Part shown: positions 1,411 to 29,472 of the stretch, one piece after another
How the letters are laid out: each line of letters opens with the position of its first letter
Numbering within the stretch: the first letter of the stretch is position 1
Assembly: GCF_014650575.1 (NCBI RefSeq)
Contig: NZ_BMVF01000005.1
Span: forward strand, 248,001-312,000
Direction: 5' to 3'
Length of the DNA: 64,000 bases
From: Streptomyces naganishii JCM 4654
GTDB taxonomy: Bacteria; Actinomycetota; Actinomycetes; Streptomycetales; Streptomycetaceae
Program-made: the position numbers and the translations under genes
Notes under the pieces: model-generated
What the model was told of the DNA's origin: nothing
What the model saw: the letters and a program-made list of their open reading frames with translations, nothing else
The model's database searches: none

Positions 1411-2367
1411 ATGGCAGGCACGCCCGACGAGAGCGCGGCGACGGGCCGGGCGGACGATCCGGCGTACGACGCCACACGGCTCTTCGCCGGCCATCGCGAG
1501 CTCCTGTTCTCCGTCGTCTACAACATGCTCGGCAGCGTCGCCGACACCGAGGACGTGCTCCAGGAGACCTGGCTGTCCTGGTCCGGCAAGAACAGCCGGG
1601 CGCCGCTTGCGGAGATCGGCAATCCGCGCGCCTACCTCGTACGCGTCGCGGTGAACCACGCGCTCGCCCGGCGGGCCGCCATCGCCGTCCGCCGTGAGAC
1701 GTACGTCGGTCCCTGGCTGCCCGAACCCCTGGTCACCGACACCGCCACCGGCTCCGTCCCCGACACGGCCGACCAGGCGGTGCGCGCGGACTCGGTCTCC
1801 ATGGCCCTGCTGGTGGTCCTGGAGACCCTCACGCCCCTGGAACGGGCCGTGTTCGTCCTGCACGAGGTGTTCGGTTACCCCCACACCGAGATCGCCGGCG
1901 TGCTCGACCGCAGCCCCGCCTCCGTGCGCCAGCTCGCCCACCGCGCCCGCGCGCACGTGCGCGCCCGCCGCCCCCGCTACCGCGCCCACCCCCGCGTCCG
2001 GCGCGAGGCCACGGAGCGGTTCGTCGCGGCCGCCCTCGGCGGCGACATCGGCGCGCTCATGGAGATCCTCGCGCCGGACGTGACGGTCTGGATCGACAGC
2101 GGGGGAGCGCGGAGCGGGGCCGGGTCGCGCCCGGTGCACGGCCGGGAGAAGGCCGCCCGCATGCTGGCCGGCTACGCCACCCGGCGCACCGAGGACCCGG
2201 ACATCCGCTACCGGCGCGTCAACGGCGACGACGCGGCGGTGCTGTTCACCGGAGACACCCCGTACGCCGTGATGGTCATGGACCTCACCCCGGACGGTGA
2301 CCAGGTCTCGGACGTCTACCTGGTCACCGATCCGGCCAAACTCGCCCACGTACGGAGGGCGCGATGA
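1411..2367 (+). CDS. ECF RNA polymerase sigma factor, ECF41/SigJ type
   Basis: A 318-residue sigma factor. Sigma region 2 (residues about 20-85) includes the -10 recognition segment VLQETWLSWSGKN. The linker carries WLPEPLV, a hallmark of the ECF41/SigJ group. Region 4 (about 120-180) has a YPHTEIAGVLDRSPASVRQ helix-turn-helix. The rest is a SnoaL-like NTF2-fold domain that in this group modulates activity without a separate anti-sigma factor. The ATG at 1411 is preceded by AGGGAGG at 6-base spacing; an in-frame ATG at 1357, overlapping the upstream stop, is the alternative. The SnoaL motif usually written DGGGK/R reads DSGGA here and the NGRPG motif reads NGDDA, so autoregulation may differ. 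Probably transcribed with the upstream reductase. Confidence 0.92.
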   Translation: MAGTPDESAATGRADDPAYDATRLFAGHRELLFSVVYNMLGSVADTEDVLQETWLSWSGKNSRAPLAEIGNPRAYLVRVAVNHALARRAAIAVRRETYVGPWLPEPLVTDTATGSVPDTADQAVRADSVSMALLVVLETLTPLERAVFVLHEVFGYPHTEIAGVLDRSPASVRQLAHRARAHVRARRPRYRAHPRVRREATERFVAAALGGDIGALMEILAPDVTVWIDSGGARSGAGSRPVHGREKAARMLAGYATRRTEDPDIRYRRVNGDDAAVLFTGDTPYAVMVMDLTPDGDQVSDVYLVTDPAKLAHVRRAR

Positions 2368-2385
2368 CCCGCGCTCCCGTGGAAC

Positions 2386-2517
2386 TCAGCGCTTCCTGGT
2401 CTTCAGCAGCATGATCACGAGGGCGGCGGCGAGGATCCCGAACATGATGACGAACCACGGGAAGAGTTCGTCCACCTTGGCCGACGCGAGGAGGTTCATT
2501 CCGCTTGCGAGGTTCAC
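2386..2517 (-). CDS. Small single-pass membrane protein (43 aa)
   Basis: A short gene ending in a strongly hydrophobic helix (FVIMFGILAAALVIMLL) and a basic KTRKR tail, which predicts one transmembrane segment with a cytoplasmic C-terminus. The start is placed at GTG 2517 because AAGAAGG lies about 8 bases upstream; an internal ATG at 2499 would give 37 residues but has no comparable ribosome site. It converges with the sigma gene (18-base gap) and is divergent from the DUF2993-like gene at 2662. Function unknown. Confidence 0.6.
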   Translation of the reverse strand: MNLASGMNLLASAKVDELFPWFVIMFGILAAALVIMLLKTRKR

Positions 2518-2661
2518 TGGTCCGGCCTTCTTTCGCGAAACGGCGTGTCGTGCCCCCTCCGGGTACCCAGGCCCGCTCTCCGTCACCGTGCCGGGCGTGA
2601 TCAGCCCTGTACTGTCGCGTACGTCATGGACATGCAGTCGGGGGCAACGGGGGAATCTCGC

Positions 2662-3375
2662 ATGAGGCGTCGGTGGGTCAAGGTGCTCGCGGTGATCGTG
2701 GTGGTGTCGGCCGCTCTCTTCACGGTGGCCGACCGGGTCGCCGTGCACTACGCGGACAAGGAGGCCGCCCGGCTCGCGGCGGAGAAGTACGGGTACCGCG
2801 ACAGCACCGACGGGCATCTGGACGTGTCGATAGACGGATTCCCCTTCCTCACCCAGGCGTTCAGCCAGGACTTCGACCATGTCGAGCTGGACGCGGGGAA
2901 GTTCACCGTGGACACCACGGGCAACGCGCAGGGCGGCTACCTGCCCGTCGAACGGCTCCGGATCGACCTGCGCCATGTGCGGGTGACCTCCCTGACGGCG
3001 CGCGAAGCCGAGGCCGACCTCGCCACCGGCGACGTGACGCTCTCGTACGACGCCCTGTCCGGCGCGGTGTCGAGGCTGGCCGCGAGCGGCGGTTCCGTGC
3101 ACGTGTCCCAGGCCCAGGGCTCGGCGGGTCAGGCCGCGAAGGTCAAGATCAGCGGCACGATCCGCGGCCGGCAGGGGGACGGCGAGGGCACGGTCCTCGC
3201 GCAGGGGAACGAGATCTCCCTCACCGTCCCCGGCAGCGCGCAGCCGGTGGCCACCTGGCGGGTCCAGCTCCCGGAGAACACCGGCTTCACCGAGGCGCGT
3301 TCGACCCCGGACGGCATACGGATCAGCCTGGTCGGCCACCTGGTGAACCTCGGCGCCTCACGCTTCACCCGCTGA
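2662..3375 (+). CDS. LmeA/DUF2993-like membrane-anchored lipid-binding protein
   Basis: A 237-residue protein. After MRRRWVK comes a hydrophobic N-terminal segment (VLAVIVVVSAALFTV) acting as signal anchor, then an extracytoplasmic domain with the DUF2993/LmeA signature: a DVSIDGFPFLTQ turn followed by alternating beta strands (VELDAGKFTVD, RLRIDLRHVRV). Mycobacterial LmeA is a periplasmic phosphoinositide-binding protein involved in mannan assembly; the ligand here is unknown. ATG 2662 is chosen because a GGGGGA ribosome site precedes it by 7 bases and the membrane segment then follows at once. ATG 2626 is possible but would put 12 polar residues before the basic start. Confidence 0.85.
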   Translation: MRRRWVKVLAVIVVVSAALFTVADRVAVHYADKEAARLAAEKYGYRDSTDGHLDVSIDGFPFLTQAFSQDFDHVELDAGKFTVDTTGNAQGGYLPVERLRIDLRHVRVTSLTAREAEADLATGDVTLSYDALSGAVSRLAASGGSVHVSQAQGSAGQAAKVKISGTIRGRQGDGEGTVLAQGNEISLTVPGSAQPVATWRVQLPENTGFTEARSTPDGIRISLVGHLVNLGASRFTR

Positions 3376-5477: not shown

Positions 5478-6554
5478 ATGCGCATGATCGCCTCAGCGGT
5501 GACCGGTCTGTCCGCCCTGACCGACGCGTCCGCCGCCCAGCCGCCGGCGCCGACCGTGGGGCGGCTGCTCGGCTCGTGGCAGCTCGACCTGCCCGCGCTG
5601 CTCCTGGTGATCCTGCTCGGCGCCCTGTACGGCGCGGGCGTGCTGCGGGTGCGCCGGCGCGGCGGGTCCTGGCCGCTCGCCCGGGCCGCCGCCTTCGCGC
5701 TGCCCGGACTCGGCGCGCTGGTGGTGGCCACCATGTCCGCGCTCGCCGTCTACGACCACGTGCTGTTCTGGCCGGCCGCGGTGCAGAACATCCTGCTCGA
5801 CCTGGTCGCCCCGCTGGGCCTCGCGCTCGGCGACCCGCTGCGGCTCGCGGTCGAGGCGCTGCCGGAGAACGGCTCGCGGCGCGCGCGGCGGATCGTCACC
5901 GGCCGGGTGGTGCGCGTCCTCACCTTCCCCCTGGTCTCCACCGTCCTCGTCCTCGCCACCGAACTGGTCGTCTACTTCACCCCGTACTTCGCCACCGCCC
6001 TGCGCGTCGGCTGGCTGCACGAGCTGATGTACCTGCACCTGCTCGCCGCCGGATGCCTCTTCGTCGTGCCCGTCCTCACCCACGAGCAGACGCTGCCCTC
6101 CTGGTGCACGCATCCCGTGCGCGCCGGTCTGGTCTTCCTCGACGGCCTCGTCGACGCGGTGCCCGGTGTCGTGGTGATGACCCACGGCACGCTGATCGCC
6201 GGGGCCTGGTACCTGCACCACGCGCCCACCTGGTCCACGGACGTCCACCACGACCAGCAGATCGGCGGGGGCGCCATGCTCAGCATCGCCGAACTGGTCG
6301 CGCTGCCCTTCATGCTGGCGATCCTGGTGCAGTGGGCGCGTGCCGAGCGTGCGCAGAACGCGGTCCTGGACCGCCGCCTCGACGAGCAGCTCGTACGTGT
6401 CGCCCCGCCGGCCGGCGCGGAGCCGGCCTCAGCCGTGCCGTCCCCGGCCGCTCCCGCGCCGGCGTCCCCCGCGCCCGATCTCGTACGGCCCTGGTGGGAG
6501 ACCGAGGACAACGACGTGGCCGCCCGGATCCGCCGCCAGCGGCGCGACGGCTGA
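5478..6554 (+). CDS. Cytochrome c oxidase assembly protein, caa3-type CtaG-like
   Basis: A 358-residue integral membrane protein with about seven hydrophobic segments, for example LPALLLVILLGALYGAG and AAAFALPGLGALVVATMSA. Conserved family positions include DHVLFWPAAVQNILLDLVAP, HELMYLHLLAAGCLFVVP and the histidine-rich loop TWSTDVHHDQQIGGG. These match the Caa3_CtaG family, linked to copper insertion or assembly of terminal oxidases. The tail beyond residue 300 is proline/alanine-rich and probably cytoplasmic. GAAGGAGA sits 4 bases before ATG 5478, fixing the start. No oxidase genes lie nearby. Confidence 0.85.
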   Translation: MRMIASAVTGLSALTDASAAQPPAPTVGRLLGSWQLDLPALLLVILLGALYGAGVLRVRRRGGSWPLARAAAFALPGLGALVVATMSALAVYDHVLFWPAAVQNILLDLVAPLGLALGDPLRLAVEALPENGSRRARRIVTGRVVRVLTFPLVSTVLVLATELVVYFTPYFATALRVGWLHELMYLHLLAAGCLFVVPVLTHEQTLPSWCTHPVRAGLVFLDGLVDAVPGVVVMTHGTLIAGAWYLHHAPTWSTDVHHDQQIGGGAMLSIAELVALPFMLAILVQWARAERAQNAVLDRRLDEQLVRVAPPAGAEPASAVPSPAAPAPASPAPDLVRPWWETEDNDVAARIRRQRRDG

Positions 6555-6595
6555 CCTACCCCGCGGGGGCCCGGCTGCGGGGGGACCGCGCGGGA

Positions 6596-6995
6596 TGCGT
6601 CTTCCGGAGCGGCAACCTGCTCGCCGCCTCGCAGCGCGCTCGAACAACTTCCGGCCGCCGCGGCCGTGGCCGGCCGCTCGCCGCGGCGGATGCGCGGGCG
6701 GGCCGAGGAACTGCTGACCGAGGCCGGTTCCGCGCACCGGCTGCGGCACCGCGCCGACGAGCCGTCGCGCGGGGAGCGGCAGCGGATCGCCGTCGCGCGG
6801 GCGTCGCTGCTCGAACCGGAGGTGCTGCTCGTGGACGAGCCCACCACCGCGGTGGACCGCGAGCGGGCCGCCGGCCTCGTGCGCCTCATCGCCTCGGCCA
6901 CGCGCCGCCACGGCTGCGTCACCGTCGTCGCCACCCAGGACCCGGTGGTCGGGGCGGCTGCCGACCACGTCGTCGACATGGTCGGCCCTCCACTC
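6596..6995 (+). pseudogene. ABC transporter ATPase fossil (frameshifted, 5'-truncated)
   Basis: Residues typical of an export/lipoprotein-type ABC ATPase are recoverable in two frames. Near 6599 the Q-loop region reads VFRSGNLLAA in one frame. From about 6666 a different frame gives AGRSPRRMRGRAEELLTEAG, a signature-like PSRGERQR, Walker B with D-loop (EVLLVDEPTTAVD) and the segment before the switch (VTVVATQDP). The Walker A half is absent and the frame changes between the two parts, so this is a decayed gene. Downstream the same frame runs openly into the next gene only by chance. The rest of 6555-7277 holds nothing else I can support beyond a weak -10-like TACACT at 7200. Confidence 0.75.
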
Positions 6996-7277
6996 TGCCG
7001 CGGCCGTCGCCGGTCCGGCGACCGCCTGACTCCGATCCGGACCGGGAGCCGTCAGGCGCCCGTCCCGCTGCGGTCGGCCCCGGTCAGATCTCGTGGCGGA
7101 TCGCGCGTGAGTGGTCAGGTTCGAAGCGGACTCGGCCATCTGTGTGCACGCGGGGGTGCGGCGTCCGTGCGGAGGGGGTCGTGGGGCCCTCCGCGTCGCT
7201 ACACTCTCGCCAGTTACATCGGCATCCGCGAACGCCGGCAAGGGTGTGGGGCGTTCAACGGTGCGACGGGGGTGCCC

Positions 7278-10200
7278 ATGGGCTGGCAGGTGACGTTCGC
7301 GCCGGACTGCGGGATCGCGAAGGCCGACGAGGACGACATCAAGGACGCGCTGCTGGACGTGGCGGTCGGCAGTACCACCGACGAGGCCGCCTGCGGACGT
7401 GAGGGCGCCTGGCCCGAACACGTCCGCAAGGTCACCGTGCTGCGCAGGCTCGCGGGCGGCCGCAGCGGCTCGGAGGTCCTGGAAATCGAGGTGGCCCGGG
7501 GCGGCTCGGCCTCCTTGCAGGTCGCCAAGCTCATGCGGCACCAGGACGCCGTGGAGGAGTGGGAGGCGTACCGGCAGCTGTCGGCCTCGCTCGACGCCAC
7601 CCTGTTCGTGCCGATCGTCGCGGTGGGCAACGGGGTGCGCAACCCTGGACTCGGCACCGACTTCAACCGCCACGCCGTCGTCTACGCCCATGTCCGCGAC
7701 CGCGACAACGACCCGAGCGGACCCGTGCGTTCGCTTCAGGACGTCTGGCTGGACGCGCTCGGCGACCAGCGGCGGTGCGACGAGGCCGCCGCCGTCGTCG
7801 CCGGACTCATGCAGACCCTCACCCGCAAGCTGTTCCGCGAGAGCACCTCGCGGGACGGCGACCTGACCGACGAGAACCGCCGGCTGGGCTGCGACCTGTC
7901 CCTCACCGTGGACGACATCGAGGAACCGCCCGAGGGGCTGGTCCTGCTCGTCGACGGCAACCCCGACGAGACCGACCTGTGCAGCGACGTGCTGACCTCG
8001 GCCCGTCTGCTGCGCTCCTCCACCTCGCCGCCGGGCAGCGCACGCTCCCTGGCCGCCGGCGGCCGCACCCGGCTCCGGCTCGACGAGGTCCAGGTCGACG
8101 GGGCCACGGTCACCGGCCGGTTCAAGTCCACCAAGGTGCGGGTCGCGCTCACCGGGCGGGCCGCGCCCGGCGGCCGGCCCGCCCGCGACATCAAGCCCGG
8201 CACGGCGGTGGACGTCTACGGGCGGGTCGCCTCCGTACGCGCGGGGGAGTGGTCGGACCTGCTCACCGCCGCCTTCGCCGACGACGGCGGGTTACGCGAG
8301 GGGCCCGACAGCCTCGAGTACCAGGGAGTGCGCACCGACCATCCCTTGCGCCGCCTCTACGACACCCTGGAGAGCGCGTCGGCCCCCCGCACCCGCTCCG
8401 CCGTGCACGGCGACCTCAATCCGCGCAACGTGCTGTTCTGCGGCCCCAACCCGTACCTGATCGACTTCGCCTCGTTCCGCAAGGACGCCTACTCCCTGAC
8501 AGATCCGGCCTGGATGGAGGTGTGCGTCCTGCGCGACTGCGTGGCCGGCCGCCTGACCTGGCCGCAACTGGTGCGTCTGCAAAGCTACTTGGGCCTGCTC
8601 ACCGTCGTACTCCCGTTCTGGGGCACGCGTGCCGCCGACCGCGCCGCGCAAGACCTCGCGGACCGCCACCGCGACACCGCACCCGAACTCGGCCGGTGCC
8701 TGGCCCTGTTGTGGGCGCTGCGGCGCGGGGTGTGGCAGTGGGTGCCAGAGAGCGACCGGGCGGCCTTTCCCGAGCACTACTTCCAGCACCTGCTGCTCGC
8801 CGCCTGCCGCACCTTCAAGTGGCGGGCGGACGAGGACGACCATCCGCGCGTGATCGCCGCCGCGGCGGCGGCCGCGGTCGCGTCCGAGTGCCTCGCGCCG
8901 CGCCGCGCCGACCTGTTCGCCCGCTGGGGCGAGCAGGAGATGCGGGCCGCCTGCGAAGTGCTGCTCACCCACGGCGACGGCAACGACTGGGAGAGCGGCG
9001 ACCTGGTCTCCGTGGCCGTGCTCGCCGCGGGCCGGACGGGCAACCAGGACCGGATCGCCGGGTGGCGGCGGTCGGTCGCCCGGTACCTGGCGGACGGGCC
9101 GCTGACCGGGATAGTCCAGGTGCTCAGGCGCTGCTGCCAGGACGCCGAGTGCGACGACCCCGGGTGCGCGGGAAAGCCCGGGGCCGACTTCGTCTACATC
9201 CCGCTGGAGGGCCACGCCCTCGCGCCGGGCGAGCCGTTCGTGCAGCAGGGGCAGGGCGCGCTGTCGGTCGCCTCCCGCGACTGCCTGGAACTGCTCGCCG
9301 AGCAGGAGGCCGTCGTCCTGCTCGGCGAGTCCGGCTCCGGAACCACCGTGGTGGCACGGCAGTTGCGCAGGATGCTGCTGTCCCCACGCTCCCCGGGCAC
9401 CGGGCGGCCCGCCGGCGAACACGACCACGACGGCGTGTCCCGTGGCGTGTCCGCGGGCGACGGTGAGGACGGGTGCGCAGGCGCCCGCGGACTGCTGCCC
9501 CTGTCGGTCAGCGCACCCCAGCTGAGCCACGTGCTGTCCGCGCGCTCGCCGGCCGCCGCGGTGCTGCTCGAGGTCTGCGGGCTGCGCAGTCTGCTCTCCG
9601 AGGAGCGGCTGGCCCGGCTCATGGACCTGGGCCTGGTCCACCTGACCGTGGACGCCCTGCACAAGGTCGACCCGCGGCTGCGCGGTCAGGTGCTGGACTG
9701 GCTCAAGGAACTGCGCACCGAGGCGCCGCACGTACGGGTCGTGGTCTGCCAGCGCGCCCACAACTACGACCCCGGCCAGCTGGGCTGGCCCGCCGTCGCC
9801 CTGCACAAGGTGCGCGAGCAGCCCGCCCGGCGCTTCCTGGCCGAGGTGCTGCGCCTGCTCGCGCCCCAGGACTGGCAGCCCAAGCTGGAACAGCTCAAGG
9901 AGCGGCTGTTCGACGACCCCGGAACCGCCGCGCTGCGCGACCTGGCCGGCAAGCCGCAGTTCCTGTGGATGCTCGTACGGCACTACGCCCGCACCGGCGA
10001 CATACCCGCCAACCCCGGTGTGCTGGCCCGCAAGTACCTCCTCAGGCAGTTGGAGTCGAGCAACCACTCCAGCGAGGTCGAACGCAAGCTGCGGCTGCTG
10101 CGGGAACTCGTCACCCGGCTCGGCGACTCCGGCGCGCTCAGCCGCGACGAGGCCCTGCGCGTCATCGCCGACCACGACACCGGCGACGCCGAACTCACTC

Positions 10201-12395
10201 TGGCCGCACTGCTGTCGACCAGCGTCATCAACGAGGAGTCGTCCCGCGTCACCTTCTGCAACCCCCTCGTGCAGGCCTACTGCGCCGCCTCGGTGCTCCA
10301 GCAGTACGAGCCGGACGAGGTCGACGAGGTCACCGTCCGCATCCTGCGGCACGCCTGGCGCGACGCCGCCCAGATGCTCGTCGCCGACCCCGGCACCGAC
10401 CCCGCGGTCGTGGCCGCCGTCGTCGAACAGGGCGCCTCGGCCAACCCGTTGTACGGGGCGATGCTGCTCCAGGCGGCGCCCGAGAACGCGGTGGAGACCA
10501 CCCGCGAGGACTTCCTCGGCCGCCAGCGGGCCGTACTGCACTCCCCGCACAGCGGGCTGCCGGCCTGGCGCCGCTCCGCCTACGCCCTGGCACGCTACGG
10601 CTCCCAGCCCGCGCTGGAGGTCCTGGCGACCGCCGCCGTGCAACGCGACGGCGCGCCGGAGGCCGTCGCAGCGGCCCTGGACGGGCTGGTGATGATGCAC
10701 CAGTGGTTCGTGCCCGGCGCCACCGCCGATCTGCGCGAGGTGCTGGTCCGGCTCCTCGACCCGCCCACCGACCGGCGCACCGACCCCCGGGTGGTCGCGC
10801 GCGCCCTGCGCTGCGTCCAGGTCACGGGCCTCGGCGGCCTCGTCGCCCACGTCCTGGCCCGCGTGACCCCCAATGCGCCCTGGCCGGTGGTCTCCCAGGC
10901 CTGGGAGACCCTCAGGCAGCTGAGGGTCCAGCCGACCAGGGCCCTGCGCCGCACCTACGGCGACGCCTGCGCCGCCCGGCTGGCCGAGATCGACGAGACG
11001 CTGCGCTCGACGGCCCGCACCGACGACGCGGTCGACCTCAACGACGAGCGGATGGCACTGCTGGAACTGCTGGCCGTAGAGGGCCGCATCGAGACACTGC
11101 TGGGCTACCGCTTCCGCATGGGCCTGGCCGAGCATCCGCGCTGGCGCCGGCTGCTGTGCACGGCCGCCCGCGCACAGCAGTCGCAGTCCCCGGCCAACGT
11201 CCTGGCCGACGCCGTGCTCGACGAGCACGAACCGGGCGTACGGCCGCCGGGCCAGGAGCGTTGGCGGCGGCTGCTCACCCGGGAGAACGAGCAGCTCGCG
11301 GTCATCGCCGGGCACCACATCCTCGCCGAGGGGCTGCGCCTGGACGTGGGCGACCTCGAGGCCATCCTCGTCCGGCAGACGCCCGCCAAGCTGTCCCTGG
11401 TCGCCGCCGCCGTCTCCTGTCTGCCGCCCGACCAGGACCCGGCCGCCCTCGAACCGCTCCTGGAGCGGTTCCTGGAGCGGCCGGGCGCCGAGTACGTGGA
11501 CGCGGTCGCCAGCTTCGTCACCGCCGTCGTCGCCCTGGACCAGGGCACCGGACTGCGGCTGGCCATGCGCGTGCAGGACGCCCTCGCCAAGGCGGGACTC
11601 GTCCGCGAGGCGCTCAACTGGCCCTGGGCGATGACCTGGCGGCGCGTCCTGCCGCCACGCGCCGAGATGCGCTTCTTCATGCGGGAGCAGGAGTTCGACA
11701 GCCACACCCGGATCTGCCTGCTGGGCAGCGCCGACGTCCTGCTCGACGCCCCCTGGGTGCAGCCGGCCGCGCTCACCCCGCAGGAGCAGCGCGAGCTGAT
11801 GCGGCTGCGCCCCACGAGCCCGCACGGAGTGGTCGCCCACCAGTTCGTGCTGATGGCCGCCAGCGCCGGACTCCACCAGGCGCTGCCGTTCGCCCGTGAG
11901 GTAGCCGAGAGTGAGCACAACATCCGCACGGTGATCACCCACTCGCACGGGCAGTACGGGCAGATCGAGGTCACCCTGGCCGCGCACGCGGTCACCGCGA
12001 TCGGCTACCTGGGGCGGCTCGCCCTGATGGAGGACTCCCTGGCGCTGGACGCGGAGGAGGCGGAGAGCACCCTGCGCGGCATGGCCCGCGACACCCTCTC
12101 CATGCACCCCAGCATGGAGAGGGCCCGCCTGATCGGGCTCGGCTACTGGGGCCACTGGGACGAACTGCTCACCGCGACGGAGGGCGGGGACCCCATCCTG
12201 CTGGCGGCCGCGCGCAACCTGGTCGGCCAGTGGCTGCCCGGCCCCCGGCAGCGCAGGAGCGACGGCTACTTCGCCGTGATCGCCCGCTCCATCACCCGAA
12301 GACTCCAGGGCGGCTCCTACGGCGCCGCCGCGCAGGCCACGCTCACCGACATCCGCGACGGCATCGAAGACAGGCTGGGACGCTATGTGCTCTGA
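7278..12395 (+). CDS. Giant kinase-like + degenerate NACHT/STAND + helical-repeat conflict-system protein
   Basis: A 1705-residue protein. Residues about 35-440 look like an APH/protein-kinase-like fold: a glycine-rich loop (LAGGRSGSEVL), candidate Lys84 in VAKL, the catalytic-loop pattern H377-G-D-L-N-P-R-N384 and metal-site D396-F-A. Between these lies an inserted beta-rich segment (about 270-350). After a helical linker comes a NACHT/STAND-like NTPase (about 665-900). Its Walker A is G683-ESGSG-T-T690, lacking the lysine, and its Walker B position is D792-ALHKV, lacking the second acidic residue. The rest (about 900-1705) is alpha-helical and HEAT-like. The ATG at 7278 follows a GGGGG run. 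An in-frame TTA leucine codon is at 8292-8294. The N-terminal part may be a ternary-complex-associated domain of vWA-MoxR-VMAP systems; this is from memory and unchecked. Soluble, with no signal peptide. Confidence 0.75.
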   Translation: MGWQVTFAPDCGIAKADEDDIKDALLDVAVGSTTDEAACGREGAWPEHVRKVTVLRRLAGGRSGSEVLEIEVARGGSASLQVAKLMRHQDAVEEWEAYRQLSASLDATLFVPIVAVGNGVRNPGLGTDFNRHAVVYAHVRDRDNDPSGPVRSLQDVWLDALGDQRRCDEAAAVVAGLMQTLTRKLFRESTSRDGDLTDENRRLGCDLSLTVDDIEEPPEGLVLLVDGNPDETDLCSDVLTSARLLRSSTSPPGSARSLAAGGRTRLRLDEVQVDGATVTGRFKSTKVRVALTGRAAPGGRPARDIKPGTAVDVYGRVASVRAGEWSDLLTAAFADDGGLREGPDSLEYQGVRTDHPLRRLYDTLESASAPRTRSAVHGDLNPRNVLFCGPNPYLIDFASFRKDAYSLTDPAWMEVCVLRDCVAGRLTWPQLVRLQSYLGLLTVVLPFWGTRAADRAAQDLADRHRDTAPELGRCLALLWALRRGVWQWVPESDRAAFPEHYFQHLLLAACRTFKWRADEDDHPRVIAAAAAAAVASECLAPRRADLFARWGEQEMRAACEVLLTHGDGNDWESGDLVSVAVLAAGRTGNQDRIAGWRRSVARYLADGPLTGIVQVLRRCCQDAECDDPGCAGKPGADFVYIPLEGHALAPGEPFVQQGQGALSVASRDCLELLAEQEAVVLLGESGSGTTVVARQLRRMLLSPRSPGTGRPAGEHDHDGVSRGVSAGDGEDGCAGARGLLPLSVSAPQLSHVLSARSPAAAVLLEVCGLRSLLSEERLARLMDLGLVHLTVDALHKVDPRLRGQVLDWLKELRTEAPHVRVVVCQRAHNYDPGQLGWPAVALHKVREQPARRFLAEVLRLLAPQDWQPKLEQLKERLFDDPGTAALRDLAGKPQFLWMLVRHYARTGDIPANPGVLARKYLLRQLESSNHSSEVERKLRLLRELVTRLGDSGALSRDEALRVIADHDTGDAELTLAALLSTSVINEESSRVTFCNPLVQAYCAASVLQQYEPDEVDEVTVRILRHAWRDAAQMLVADPGTDPAVVAAVVEQGASANPLYGAMLLQAAPENAVETTREDFLGRQRAVLHSPHSGLPAWRRSAYALARYGSQPALEVLATAAVQRDGAPEAVAAALDGLVMMHQWFVPGATADLREVLVRLLDPPTDRRTDPRVVARALRCVQVTGLGGLVAHVLARVTPNAPWPVVSQAWETLRQLRVQPTRALRRTYGDACAARLAEIDETLRSTARTDDAVDLNDERMALLELLAVEGRIETLLGYRFRMGLAEHPRWRRLLCTAARAQQSQSPANVLADAVLDEHEPGVRPPGQERWRRLLTRENEQLAVIAGHHILAEGLRLDVGDLEAILVRQTPAKLSLVAAAVSCLPPDQDPAALEPLLERFLERPGAEYVDAVASFVTAVVALDQGTGLRLAMRVQDALAKAGLVREALNWPWAMTWRRVLPPRAEMRFFMREQEFDSHTRICLLGSADVLLDAPWVQPAALTPQEQRELMRLRPTSPHGVVAHQFVLMAASAGLHQALPFAREVAESEHNIRTVITHSHGQYGQIEVTLAAHAVTAIGYLGRLALMEDSLALDAEEAESTLRGMARDTLSMHPSMERARLIGLGYWGHWDELLTATEGGDPILLAAARNLVGQWLPGPRQRRSDGYFAVIARSITRRLQGGSYGAAAQATLTDIRDGIEDRLGRYVL

Positions 12396-14620: not shown

Positions 14621-16090
14621 GTGACCACACCCGACGCCGACGCCAGGGCGTGGCTGATCACCGCCGCCCCCGCTCCGACCGTGCCGCCCGCCTGGCGGCC
14701 TGCCGGCCAGGGAGCGGGCCGGCACGAGCCCGTCTTCGCCGAGGCCCCGCCCGGCTGGCCCGGCCCGCTGCCCACCCCGGCGGCGGAGACCTCGGCCGCC
14801 GCCCTGCACACGCTGATCCGCCTGTGGCCCGACGCCGCCGGGGCCGTCGAGCAGGCCGCCGACGCCTACACCGTCCCGGACCGCCCGCCCGGCCCGCAGG
14901 GGCGGCTCGCCACCGCCGCCGCCCAGTGGGAACTGGTCCTGGTCGTCGACACCGGGGTGTCCATGGCCGCGTGGTACCCGACCGTGAACGCCTTCGCCGC
15001 GTGCGTGCGCGACCTGCCGCTGTTCAGCGAGGTGCACGTCGTCAAGCTGCGTACGCACCGGTCCGCCACGCCCGACGGACTCTTCGACCGGGACCGGCTC
15101 GGCGCCATCGGGCTGGGCGAGAGCACCGAGGGCACCCGCAAGATGGTGCTGATCCTCACCGACGGAGTCGGCGCCGCATGGAAGCGGCGGCTGCTCTGGC
15201 CCGACCTGCGCCGCTGGGCCGGCTGCCACACCGTGGCGATCCTGAACGTGCTGCCGCACTACAACTGGCACCTGTCCGGCATCCACACCCGTTCCCTGCG
15301 GCTGCGAACCTCGCACCCCGGCTGCGCCAACCGCGCGCTGCTCGCCGAGCCGTCCGACTCGCCGTCCCTGCCCGGGGAGGCCGGCCCCGAGCAGTGCGCC
15401 AGCCTGTTCATTCCGGTGCTGGAGATACGCAAACGGTGGCTGGACCAGTGGGCGCGGCTGCTGATGTCCCGGCGGCTGCCGGTGCGCCAGCACGTGCTGG
15501 AGATCCCCGAGGAGGGCGACGTGGGGACGCGGGTCGCGGCGCCGGCCGGCGCGGGGGAGCTGGACACCGACCCCGACCGGCGCATCGCCACCTTCCGCAC
15601 GGCCGCCTCGGAGAACTCCTTCGCGCTCGCGGTGCTGCTGGCCGCCGCGCCGCTGAACCGGCACGTGATGCAGCTGATCGCCGTGGAGCTGATGCCGGAG
15701 GCCGACGCCGGCGACCTCGCCGCCATCCTGACCAGCGGCCTGATCACGACGGTCGACGACGTGCCGGACCACCACGACCCGTTCGACGCGGTCACCTTCG
15801 ACTTCCTGCCGGGCGTCCGGCAGCGGCTGCTGTCCCTGGGCGAGACCCTGAAGACCCGGAAGGTCGCCAAGCTGCTCGACACCCACCTCGGCCCGCTCGT
15901 CCCGGCGATGCGGGGCATCGACCGCCGGATGCGCTCTCCGGACCCGGCCTCTACGCCGCCGCCCACCAGGGCCACCCACCACTACTCCCGCGTCGAGCTG
16001 GCCCTTCTCACGGCCCTCTCCGGTGACTCGCACCCCCACAGGGAGACAGCCCAGGCCCTCCAGTGCCGCCTCGCGGAACTCCTTCCGTAG
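14621..16090 (+). CDS. vWA-like protein of SAV_2336 N-terminal type
   Basis: A 489-residue protein with a von Willebrand A-like domain. The strand-loop LVLVVDTGVSM gives D110-x-G-x-S114 in place of the usual DxSxS MIDAS; MVLILTDGVGAAW contains T180-D181-G; and HTVAILNVLPHYNWH is characteristic of SAV_2336-type proteins. The C-terminal third is helical (FDFLPGVRQRLLSLGE). Such proteins normally pair with a MoxR AAA+ ATPase and a VMAP protein, but the ATPase is absent here. GTG 14621 follows GGACGAGG at 10-base spacing and the gene is 7 bases behind the VMAP-like gene, so the two are probably one operon. No TTA codon seen. Confidence 0.78.
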   Translation: MTTPDADARAWLITAAPAPTVPPAWRPAGQGAGRHEPVFAEAPPGWPGPLPTPAAETSAAALHTLIRLWPDAAGAVEQAADAYTVPDRPPGPQGRLATAAAQWELVLVVDTGVSMAAWYPTVNAFAACVRDLPLFSEVHVVKLRTHRSATPDGLFDRDRLGAIGLGESTEGTRKMVLILTDGVGAAWKRRLLWPDLRRWAGCHTVAILNVLPHYNWHLSGIHTRSLRLRTSHPGCANRALLAEPSDSPSLPGEAGPEQCASLFIPVLEIRKRWLDQWARLLMSRRLPVRQHVLEIPEEGDVGTRVAAPAGAGELDTDPDRRIATFRTAASENSFALAVLLAAAPLNRHVMQLIAVELMPEADAGDLAAILTSGLITTVDDVPDHHDPFDAVTFDFLPGVRQRLLSLGETLKTRKVAKLLDTHLGPLVPAMRGIDRRMRSPDPASTPPPTRATHHYSRVELALLTALSGDSHPHRETAQALQCRLAELLP

Positions 16091-28618: not shown

Positions 28619-29472
28619 ACGGCGTCCAGGTCGAGCTTGGCGGCCGCCTTGAGCACGTCCTCCTGGTGCTTGAGGAGGACGCCCAGGGTGTCGCGGACGA
28701 CGTCCTCGCCGAGCGTGCCCGCGCCCAGCGCGAGCAGTGTGCGCGCCCAGTCGATGGTCTCGGCGACCGAGGGCACCTTGCGCAGGTCCATCGCGCGCAG
28801 CGCGCCGACCACCCGCACCACGGAGGCGGCCAGCGCCTCGTCGAGCCCCGGCACCTTCAGGCGCAGGATCCGCCGCTCCAGTTCCTCGTCGGGGAAGCCG
28901 ATGTGCAGGAACAGGCAGCGGCGGCGCAGCGCCTCCGACAACTCGCGGGTGGCGTTGGAGGTGAGGACCACGAAGGGGCGCCGGGTCGCGGTGATGGTGC
29001 CCAGCTCGGGCACGGTCACCTGGAAGTCGCCGAGCACCTCCAGGAGCAGGCCCTCGATCTCGACGTCCGCCTTGTCGGTCTCGTCGATCAGCAGCACCTT
29101 CGCGTCGTCGCCGCGGATCGCCGTGAGCAGCGGGCGGGTCAGCAGGAACTCCTCGCTGAAGATGTCCGTCCGGGTCTCGTCCCAGCCCTGGTCGCGTCCC
29201 GCGCTGATGCGCAGCAGCTGCTTGGCGTGGTTCCACTCGTACAGCGCCCGGGACTCGTCCACGCCCTCGTAGCACTGCAACCGGACCAGCCGGGCCCCGG
29301 CGACCTCGGCCACCGCCTTGGCCAGCTCCGTCTTGCCGACCCCGGCGGGTCCCTCGATCAGCAGCGGCTTGCCGAGGCGGTCGGCGAGGAAGACGGTCGT
29401 GGCGACCGCGGGCGAGGCGAGGTAGCCGGTCTCGGCCAGGCGGGCGGAGACATCCTCGACGGACGTGAACAA
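28615..29472 (-). CDS. MoxR family AAA+ ATPase
   Basis: A 285-residue AAA+ ATPase. Walker A G41-PAGVGKT48; Walker B LLIDETDKAD; sensor 1 in FVVLTSNATREL; arginine-finger region EALRRRCLFLHIGFPDEE. It forms ATP-driven rings that act with the downstream vWA protein. The start is TTG 29472, supported by GGAGG 5 bases upstream; no ATG or GTG in frame fits the conserved N-terminus as well. It is not linked to the conflict-like island at 7.3-16 kb, which has no MoxR of its own. Confidence 0.92.
   Translation of the reverse strand: MFTSVEDVSARLAETGYLASPAVATTVFLADRLGKPLLIEGPAGVGKTELAKAVAEVAGARLVRLQCYEGVDESRALYEWNHAKQLLRISAGRDQGWDETRTDIFSEEFLLTRPLLTAIRGDDAKVLLIDETDKADVEIEGLLLEVLGDFQVTVPELGTITATRRPFVVLTSNATRELSEALRRRCLFLHIGFPDEELERRILRLKVPGLDEALAASVVRVVGALRAMDLRKVPSVAETIDWARTLLALGAGTLGEDVVRDTLGVLLKHQEDVLKAAAKLDLDAV

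Follow-up and report, generated by a model that had tools for sequence, protein, structure and literature searches.

Comparison with described conflict systems

Previous studies describe MoxR-vWA-VMAP systems, of which VMAP-C, VMAP-M0, EAD2, and SAV_2336_NTERM are parts (PMC7159879); that such ternary systems counter invaders has been predicted but not shown (PMC7159879, PMC8195603). In iSTAND (Kaur et al. 2020, PMC7159879) and iSTAND2 (2021, PMC8195603), a STAND NTPase that is inactive as a class replaces VMAP beside MoxR-vWA, and a sensing and assembly role without hydrolysis of nucleoside triphosphates (NTPs) has been proposed. We analyzed a stretch of 64,000 nucleotides from Streptomyces naganishii JCM 4654 (contig NZ_BMVF01000005.1, positions 248,001 to 312,000; hereafter the window), which encodes a 1705-residue protein with a kinase-like TCAD9 domain, a NACHT-like STAND module, and a C-terminal part that probably consists of alpha-repeats. 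This kinase–NACHT gene opens a four-gene cassette and is followed by the genes for a small opposite-strand protein, an EAD2-VMAP protein, and a SAV_2336-type vWA protein. On balance, we favor the view that the kinase–NACHT protein is a component of a VMAP-type predicted conflict cassette, in which the NACHT of the window lineage would be a nucleotide-independent scaffold and the kinase would give the output.

The cassette shares with the VMAP (vWA-MoxR-VMAP) systems a homologous EAD2-bearing VMAP-M0/VMAP-C protein and a homologous vWA (SAV_2336_NTERM) protein. However, tblastn of the loci with the window genome's own MoxR as the sole query, some loci being short, detected no adjacent MoxR at 15 of the 16 cassette loci, including that of the window; the vWA protein has no C-terminal effector, and the separate kinase–NACHT gene and the small protein are additional. 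With iSTAND and iSTAND2 the cassette has in common a probably inactive STAND NTPase in a predicted vWA-centred conflict system, but the apparent inactivation is here recent and recurrent. The window protein would work like an iSTAND but does not count as one, since the cassette includes VMAP and no MoxR gene was found in it, and since most of the relatives appear active. The bNACHT/EruA proteins and plant nucleotide-binding leucine-rich repeat receptors (NLRs), such as ADR1-L2, for which P-loop-independent roles are documented (PMC3636237), likewise combine a NACHT or NB-ARC STAND with a C-terminal candidate trigger-sensing region; unlike these, the window protein has an N-terminal kinase-like domain and has naturally lost two catalytic positions. 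No description of a cassette of kinase–NACHT, small protein, EAD2-VMAP, and vWA genes without an adjacent MoxR was found in the papers searched.

Degenerate nucleotide-binding site of the NACHT-like module

We numbered the protein from the ATG at 7278 (MGWQ...), taken as the likely start in the open frame 6666-12395 (+), and compared 16 members, namely the window protein, its homologue from S. anandii (L002), those of 10 further genomes from three genera of Streptomycetaceae, and four copies on Streptomyces linear plasmids. From the window protein alone the evidence for a NACHT is thin, with a weak Pfam match to nSTAND3 at residues 665-700 and no match to Pfam NACHT (PF05729) above the cut-off, but the family as a whole provides adequate evidence. 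G765, the most divergent relative and 29% identical to the window protein over the whole length, scores 30.5 bits against a NACHT cut-off of 26.7, with model positions 3-166 of 167 matched, and has GAGKS and VDGLDEV in the Walker columns. Among the 12 family members tested, 11 match nSTAND3 and 10 match the NACHT antiphage EruA model, each weakly, and the Walker A column of 13 aligned relatives reads [GSA]xx[GS]xGK[ST]. Because G765 passes the NACHT cut-off and the 13 relatives align with the lysine motif, the assignment of the Walker A and B columns is, at the level of sequence, correct. Chance does not account for the motif, since the same frame holds the TCAD9 domain (E=6.6e-99) and a second species carries the identical motif. 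Sequence searches of the PDB returned only generic P-loop matches with the STAND alignment and no match with the full-length profile.

The initial annotation had read a Thr in place of the Walker A Lys, and this reading holds: GESGSGTT occupies residues 683-690 in a column set by the 13 lysine-type relatives and G765. Replacement of the Walker A Lys by Ala or Arg is reported, in work cited in PMC10698375, to abolish nucleotide binding. The lysine is kept in 13 of the 16 aligned members, and the three with Thr are the window protein, the S. anandii homologue, and the copy on plasmid NZ_CP108236.1 (Streptomyces sp. NBC_00080). The S. anandii homologue is 93% identical to the window protein and has both Thr689 and Ala793; since it carries the identical codons ACC and GCC, a sequencing error or local mutation is ruled out. 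The nearest relative of the NZ_CP108236.1 copy, G252 (69% identity), retains Lys, and the maximum-likelihood tree needs two lysine changes, which the well-supported branches alone force. We conclude from the alignment and tree that the K-to-T change of this plasmid copy is independent of the loss in the window protein and S. anandii. In this copy (L054, gene at 6138-11183, +), the K-to-T codon is ACG and the Walker B still reads DE. Arg694, considered as a rescuing basic residue, is not specific, as many lysine-positive relatives also have R694 (by eye).

As for the reported loss of a Walker B acid, it is the second acid, at position 793, that is gone; the first, D792, is kept and is invariant in all 16 members, as are R826 and P893, which from their positions would be a sensor Arg and a GxP-like Pro. 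An acid, D or E, stands at position 793 in 11/16 members; the others have A (window protein and S. anandii), H (G144), or G (the S. aurantiacus plasmid copy, pAurant, and G765), and in G765 a D-E pair is found at 795-796 instead. The H-K at 795-796, the place of the NACHT 'DE', also occurs in lysine-keeping relatives (DDLHK) and is not specific to the window. A family-wide pseudo-NTPase is ruled out by the lysine in 13/16 and the acid at 793 in 11/16 members. Erosion of the predicted NTPase site is thus recurrent in the family and furthest advanced in the window lineage.

These residues bear directly on the main rival explanation, in which the NACHT holds ADP or ATP but cannot cycle, the loss of K689 and D793 stopping hydrolysis alone and leaving a one-shot or permanently primed switch. 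Such a switch would agree with the retention of G686, G688, D792, R826, and P893 in the window protein, and with G144 and pAurant, which keep the lysine without an acid at 793, as if hydrolysis goes first; however, in the window protein the lysine and second-acid lesions occur together, and we consider this explanation unlikely.

Intact catalytic set of the kinase-like domain

TCAD9 (PF19974) is a kinase-like domain of ternary systems, and the match in the window protein spans the full Pfam model. All 16 members share the residues K84, E94, H377, D379, N384, and D396, and the glycine loop LAGGRSGSEVLEI, at about residues 59-66, is mostly kept across the family; together they read as the complete catalytic set of the protein-kinase/aminoglycoside phosphotransferase (APH) superfamily (Gly loop, Lys, Glu, HxDxxxxN, and metal-binding Asp). 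The initial annotation had been right to call H377-D379-N384 and D396 intact, and had placed KPQFLWMLVRHYA, HGDLNPRN, and DFASFR correctly. Its further suggestion, that switch and enzyme have exchanged roles, exceeds the data: a takeover of switching by the kinase is unsupported because the relatives that look active all carry this kinase too. The kinase reading depends here on the catalytic residues; no functional description of TCAD9 was found in the literature searched. Active APH-like kinase domains are named among the effectors of such systems (Kaur et al. 2020, PMC7159879), but their identity with TCAD9 could not be confirmed, as the name TCAD9 is absent from the main text.

Purifying selection on the degenerate domain

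We measured the ratio of nonsynonymous to synonymous substitution rates (dN/dS) between the window protein and its S. anandii homologue, at a synonymous divergence (dS) of 0.17. The ratio is 0.21 for the whole protein, 0.16 for TCAD9, and 0.22 for the C-terminal part. In the STAND module, residues 636-702 show no nonsynonymous and only 3 synonymous changes, and residues 738-1010 give 0.12, so that the core deviates from neutrality (P=2e-11). The insert at residues 703-737, between Walker A and B, has a ratio of 0.83 for which neutrality is not rejected (P=0.42). Because the core ratio is low and the insert is near neutral, the NACHT core has been kept by purifying selection after both catalytic losses, without decay. 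The nearly neutral insert carries indels, and its length varies widely between relatives.

This pattern bears on the explanation that the protein is a decaying relic, the lesions being the beginning of pseudogenisation in a dispensable mobile cassette. The cassette is indeed sporadic (7 of the 393 sampled genomes of the genus), and in the NZ_CP108236.1 copy conservation is lower in the helical/winged-helix part (58%) than elsewhere in the protein (69%). However, the 1705-codon frame is open in both the window species and S. anandii, the post-loss dN/dS of the NACHT core is 0 to 0.12 against 0.83 in the insert, and the four cassette genes are 86-96% identical in S. anandii, which makes decay highly improbable. 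The pseudo-NTPase scaffold proposed in the initial annotation is accordingly supported for the window lineage, with its two lesions, purifying selection, and intact kinase, but not as a property of the family. A normal lysine in orthologues, which had been named as the sign of a merely local mutation, is what most relatives have; yet the loss is no one-off, being shared by two species and repeated in an independent lineage.

A proposed nucleotide-independent scaffold

In the favored scaffold explanation, the NACHT of the window lineage would have lost nucleotide hydrolysis and probably also firm binding, and the folded domain would persist as a scaffold that places the C-terminal repeats, a candidate sensor, and the EAD2-VMAP and vWA partners relative to the kinase. 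Activation would then come from a ligand- or partner-driven rearrangement in place of the ATP-ADP cycle. By analogy with the ternary systems, sensing would fall to the C-terminal repeats, recruitment of partners to EAD2 and VMAP, and the enzymatic output to the TCAD9 kinase. Several points weigh against this explanation. The retained P-loop backbone (GSG) and D792 make weak or static nucleotide binding possible, and the pseudo state is limited to 3/16 members. AlphaFold2 of the STAND module, with only two sequences as input, gave no usable structure model (predicted local distance difference test, pLDDT, 42.8). A stronger constraint on the NACHT than on the kinase was considered and dropped (Fisher P=0.34), and this cassette is tested neither by PADLOC nor in the papers that were found.

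The four-gene cassette

The features of the kinase–NACHT gene and of its three companions are given in Table 1.

Table 1. Positions in the window of the kinase–NACHT gene, its domains and motifs, and the other cassette genes
Feature	Position	Strand	Basis or remark
TCAD9 kinase-like / NACHT-like STAND / putative C-terminal alpha-repeat protein, 1705 aa	7278..12395	+	Frame, start, Pfam, 15 relatives
TCAD9 domain, residues 51-514	7428..8819	+	Pfam PF19974, E=6.6e-99, 332 bits vs cut-off 40
NACHT-like STAND module, about residues 636-1010	9183..10307	+	Weak nSTAND3 match (window protein); matches of relatives
Degenerate Walker A GESGSGTT, residues 683-690	9324..9347	+	Thr689 (ACC, 9342-9344) replaces Lys
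Rapidly evolving insert, residues 703-737, between the two Walker motifs	9384..9488	+	dN/dS 0.83, indels
Degenerate Walker B VDALHKV, residues 791-797	9648..9668	+	D792 kept; A793 (GCC, 9654-9656) replaces D/E
Arg826, sensor-like CQR motif	9753..9755	+	Invariant 16/16
Pro893 of GKP motif (GxP-like)	9954..9956	+	Invariant 16/16
Small conserved protein, 141 aa	12406..12831	-	Beside kinase–NACHT gene in 15/16 loci; annotated at that place in four plasmids
EAD2 - VMAP-M0 - VMAP-C protein, 510 aa	13081..14613	+	Pfam; 16/16 loci
SAV_2336_NTERM protein, 489 aa, vWA-like, with DTGVS like a metal ion-dependent adhesion site (MIDAS)	14621..16090	+	NCBIfam NF041121, 1.6e-62; 16/16 loci

The small protein shows 52-69% identity outside S. 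anandii and has a hydrophobic N-terminal helix that is likely a membrane anchor; its motifs LTDAFVAFLxASW and LTRLRLL are highly conserved, and its gene lies convergent to the kinase–NACHT gene. In the EAD2-VMAP protein, Pfam finds EAD2 (8.9e-13), VMAP-M0 (2.7e-19), and VMAP-C (PF20028, 1.2e-41). Residues 109-115 of the SAV_2336_NTERM protein contain DTGVS (DxGxS) in the window and in most relatives, and DTSPS in G252 and the NBC_00080 plasmid, where metal binding may be altered. AlphaFold of this vWA-like protein, again from two sequences, likewise gave no usable model (pLDDT 35.3).

We found the cassette on both chromosomes and linear plasmids. In the seven loci compared, the flanking genes are unrelated, except between two sister loci, and precisely these genes are annotated in the records of the four plasmids, three as hypothetical. 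We regard the cassette as mobile. No copies were found in phages, and none in viral contigs by a search covering close patterns only.

MoxR and the second VMAP system of the genome

The exception to the missing MoxR is G765, in which, from the coordinates, a MoxR gene lies directly downstream of the vWA gene (L069, about 2171-3193, -). G765 lacks the small protein, whereas the remaining 15 loci show the reverse, with the small protein and no MoxR found. An order of events in which an ancestral cassette with MoxR and an intact NACHT lost MoxR and gained the small protein, followed by erosion of the NACHT site, is plausible but unproven.

A second, canonical VMAP system is encoded on contig C7 of the window genome (L074, 3411-12383, -), with genes for a trypsin-EAD2 protein, an EAD2-VMAP protein, a MoxR-like AAA+ protein, and a SAV_2336_NTERM domain fused to NB-ARC and TPR (FxSxx_TPR). 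Because SAV_2336_NTERM is the vWA component of this canonical system, it is taken as the vWA component of the cassette as well. Inside the window itself, a weak MoxR-like match lies about 13 kb from the cassette at 28888-29145 (-; 33% over 111 aa) and is probably an unrelated AAA+ gene.

The C7 system makes a mixed assembly conceivable, in which a STAND or AAA+ partner encoded elsewhere, such as the C7 MoxR or the NB-ARC-TPR protein, hydrolyses ATP in trans. The genome does hold MoxR, SAV_2336-NB-ARC-TPR, EAD2-VMAP, and trypsin-EAD2 proteins; MoxR stands in the operon just in G765, and the plant 'helper' NLR ADR1-L2 needs no intact P-loop for some of its roles (PMC3636237). However, the EAD2 of the cassette is merely 23-26% identical to the EAD2s of the C7 system, which does not favor cross-recruitment, and the window genome has no paralogue of the kinase–NACHT protein that could be an intact partner. 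We therefore consider a mixed assembly quite improbable.

Implications

Extended to the family, the scaffold explanation would describe a VMAP cassette without MoxR in which the enzyme that stays constant is the kinase, while the NACHT has repeatedly turned into a nucleotide-independent scaffold, giving an NLR-like phosphorylation signalling without an ATP switch; we offer this extension tentatively, as a possibility that we do not think probable. Inactive STANDs are already known, but as fixed classes, in which the changes that accompany the loss of activity cannot be seen. The recurrent and recent apparent inactivation of a NACHT and the cassette that contains it are new. Here, the Walker A lysine was lost twice independently, and close relatives with and without it are alike in architecture and cassette. 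The family thus permits one to test directly whether the ATP cycle is essential to a NACHT protein and whether the attached kinase carries the output.
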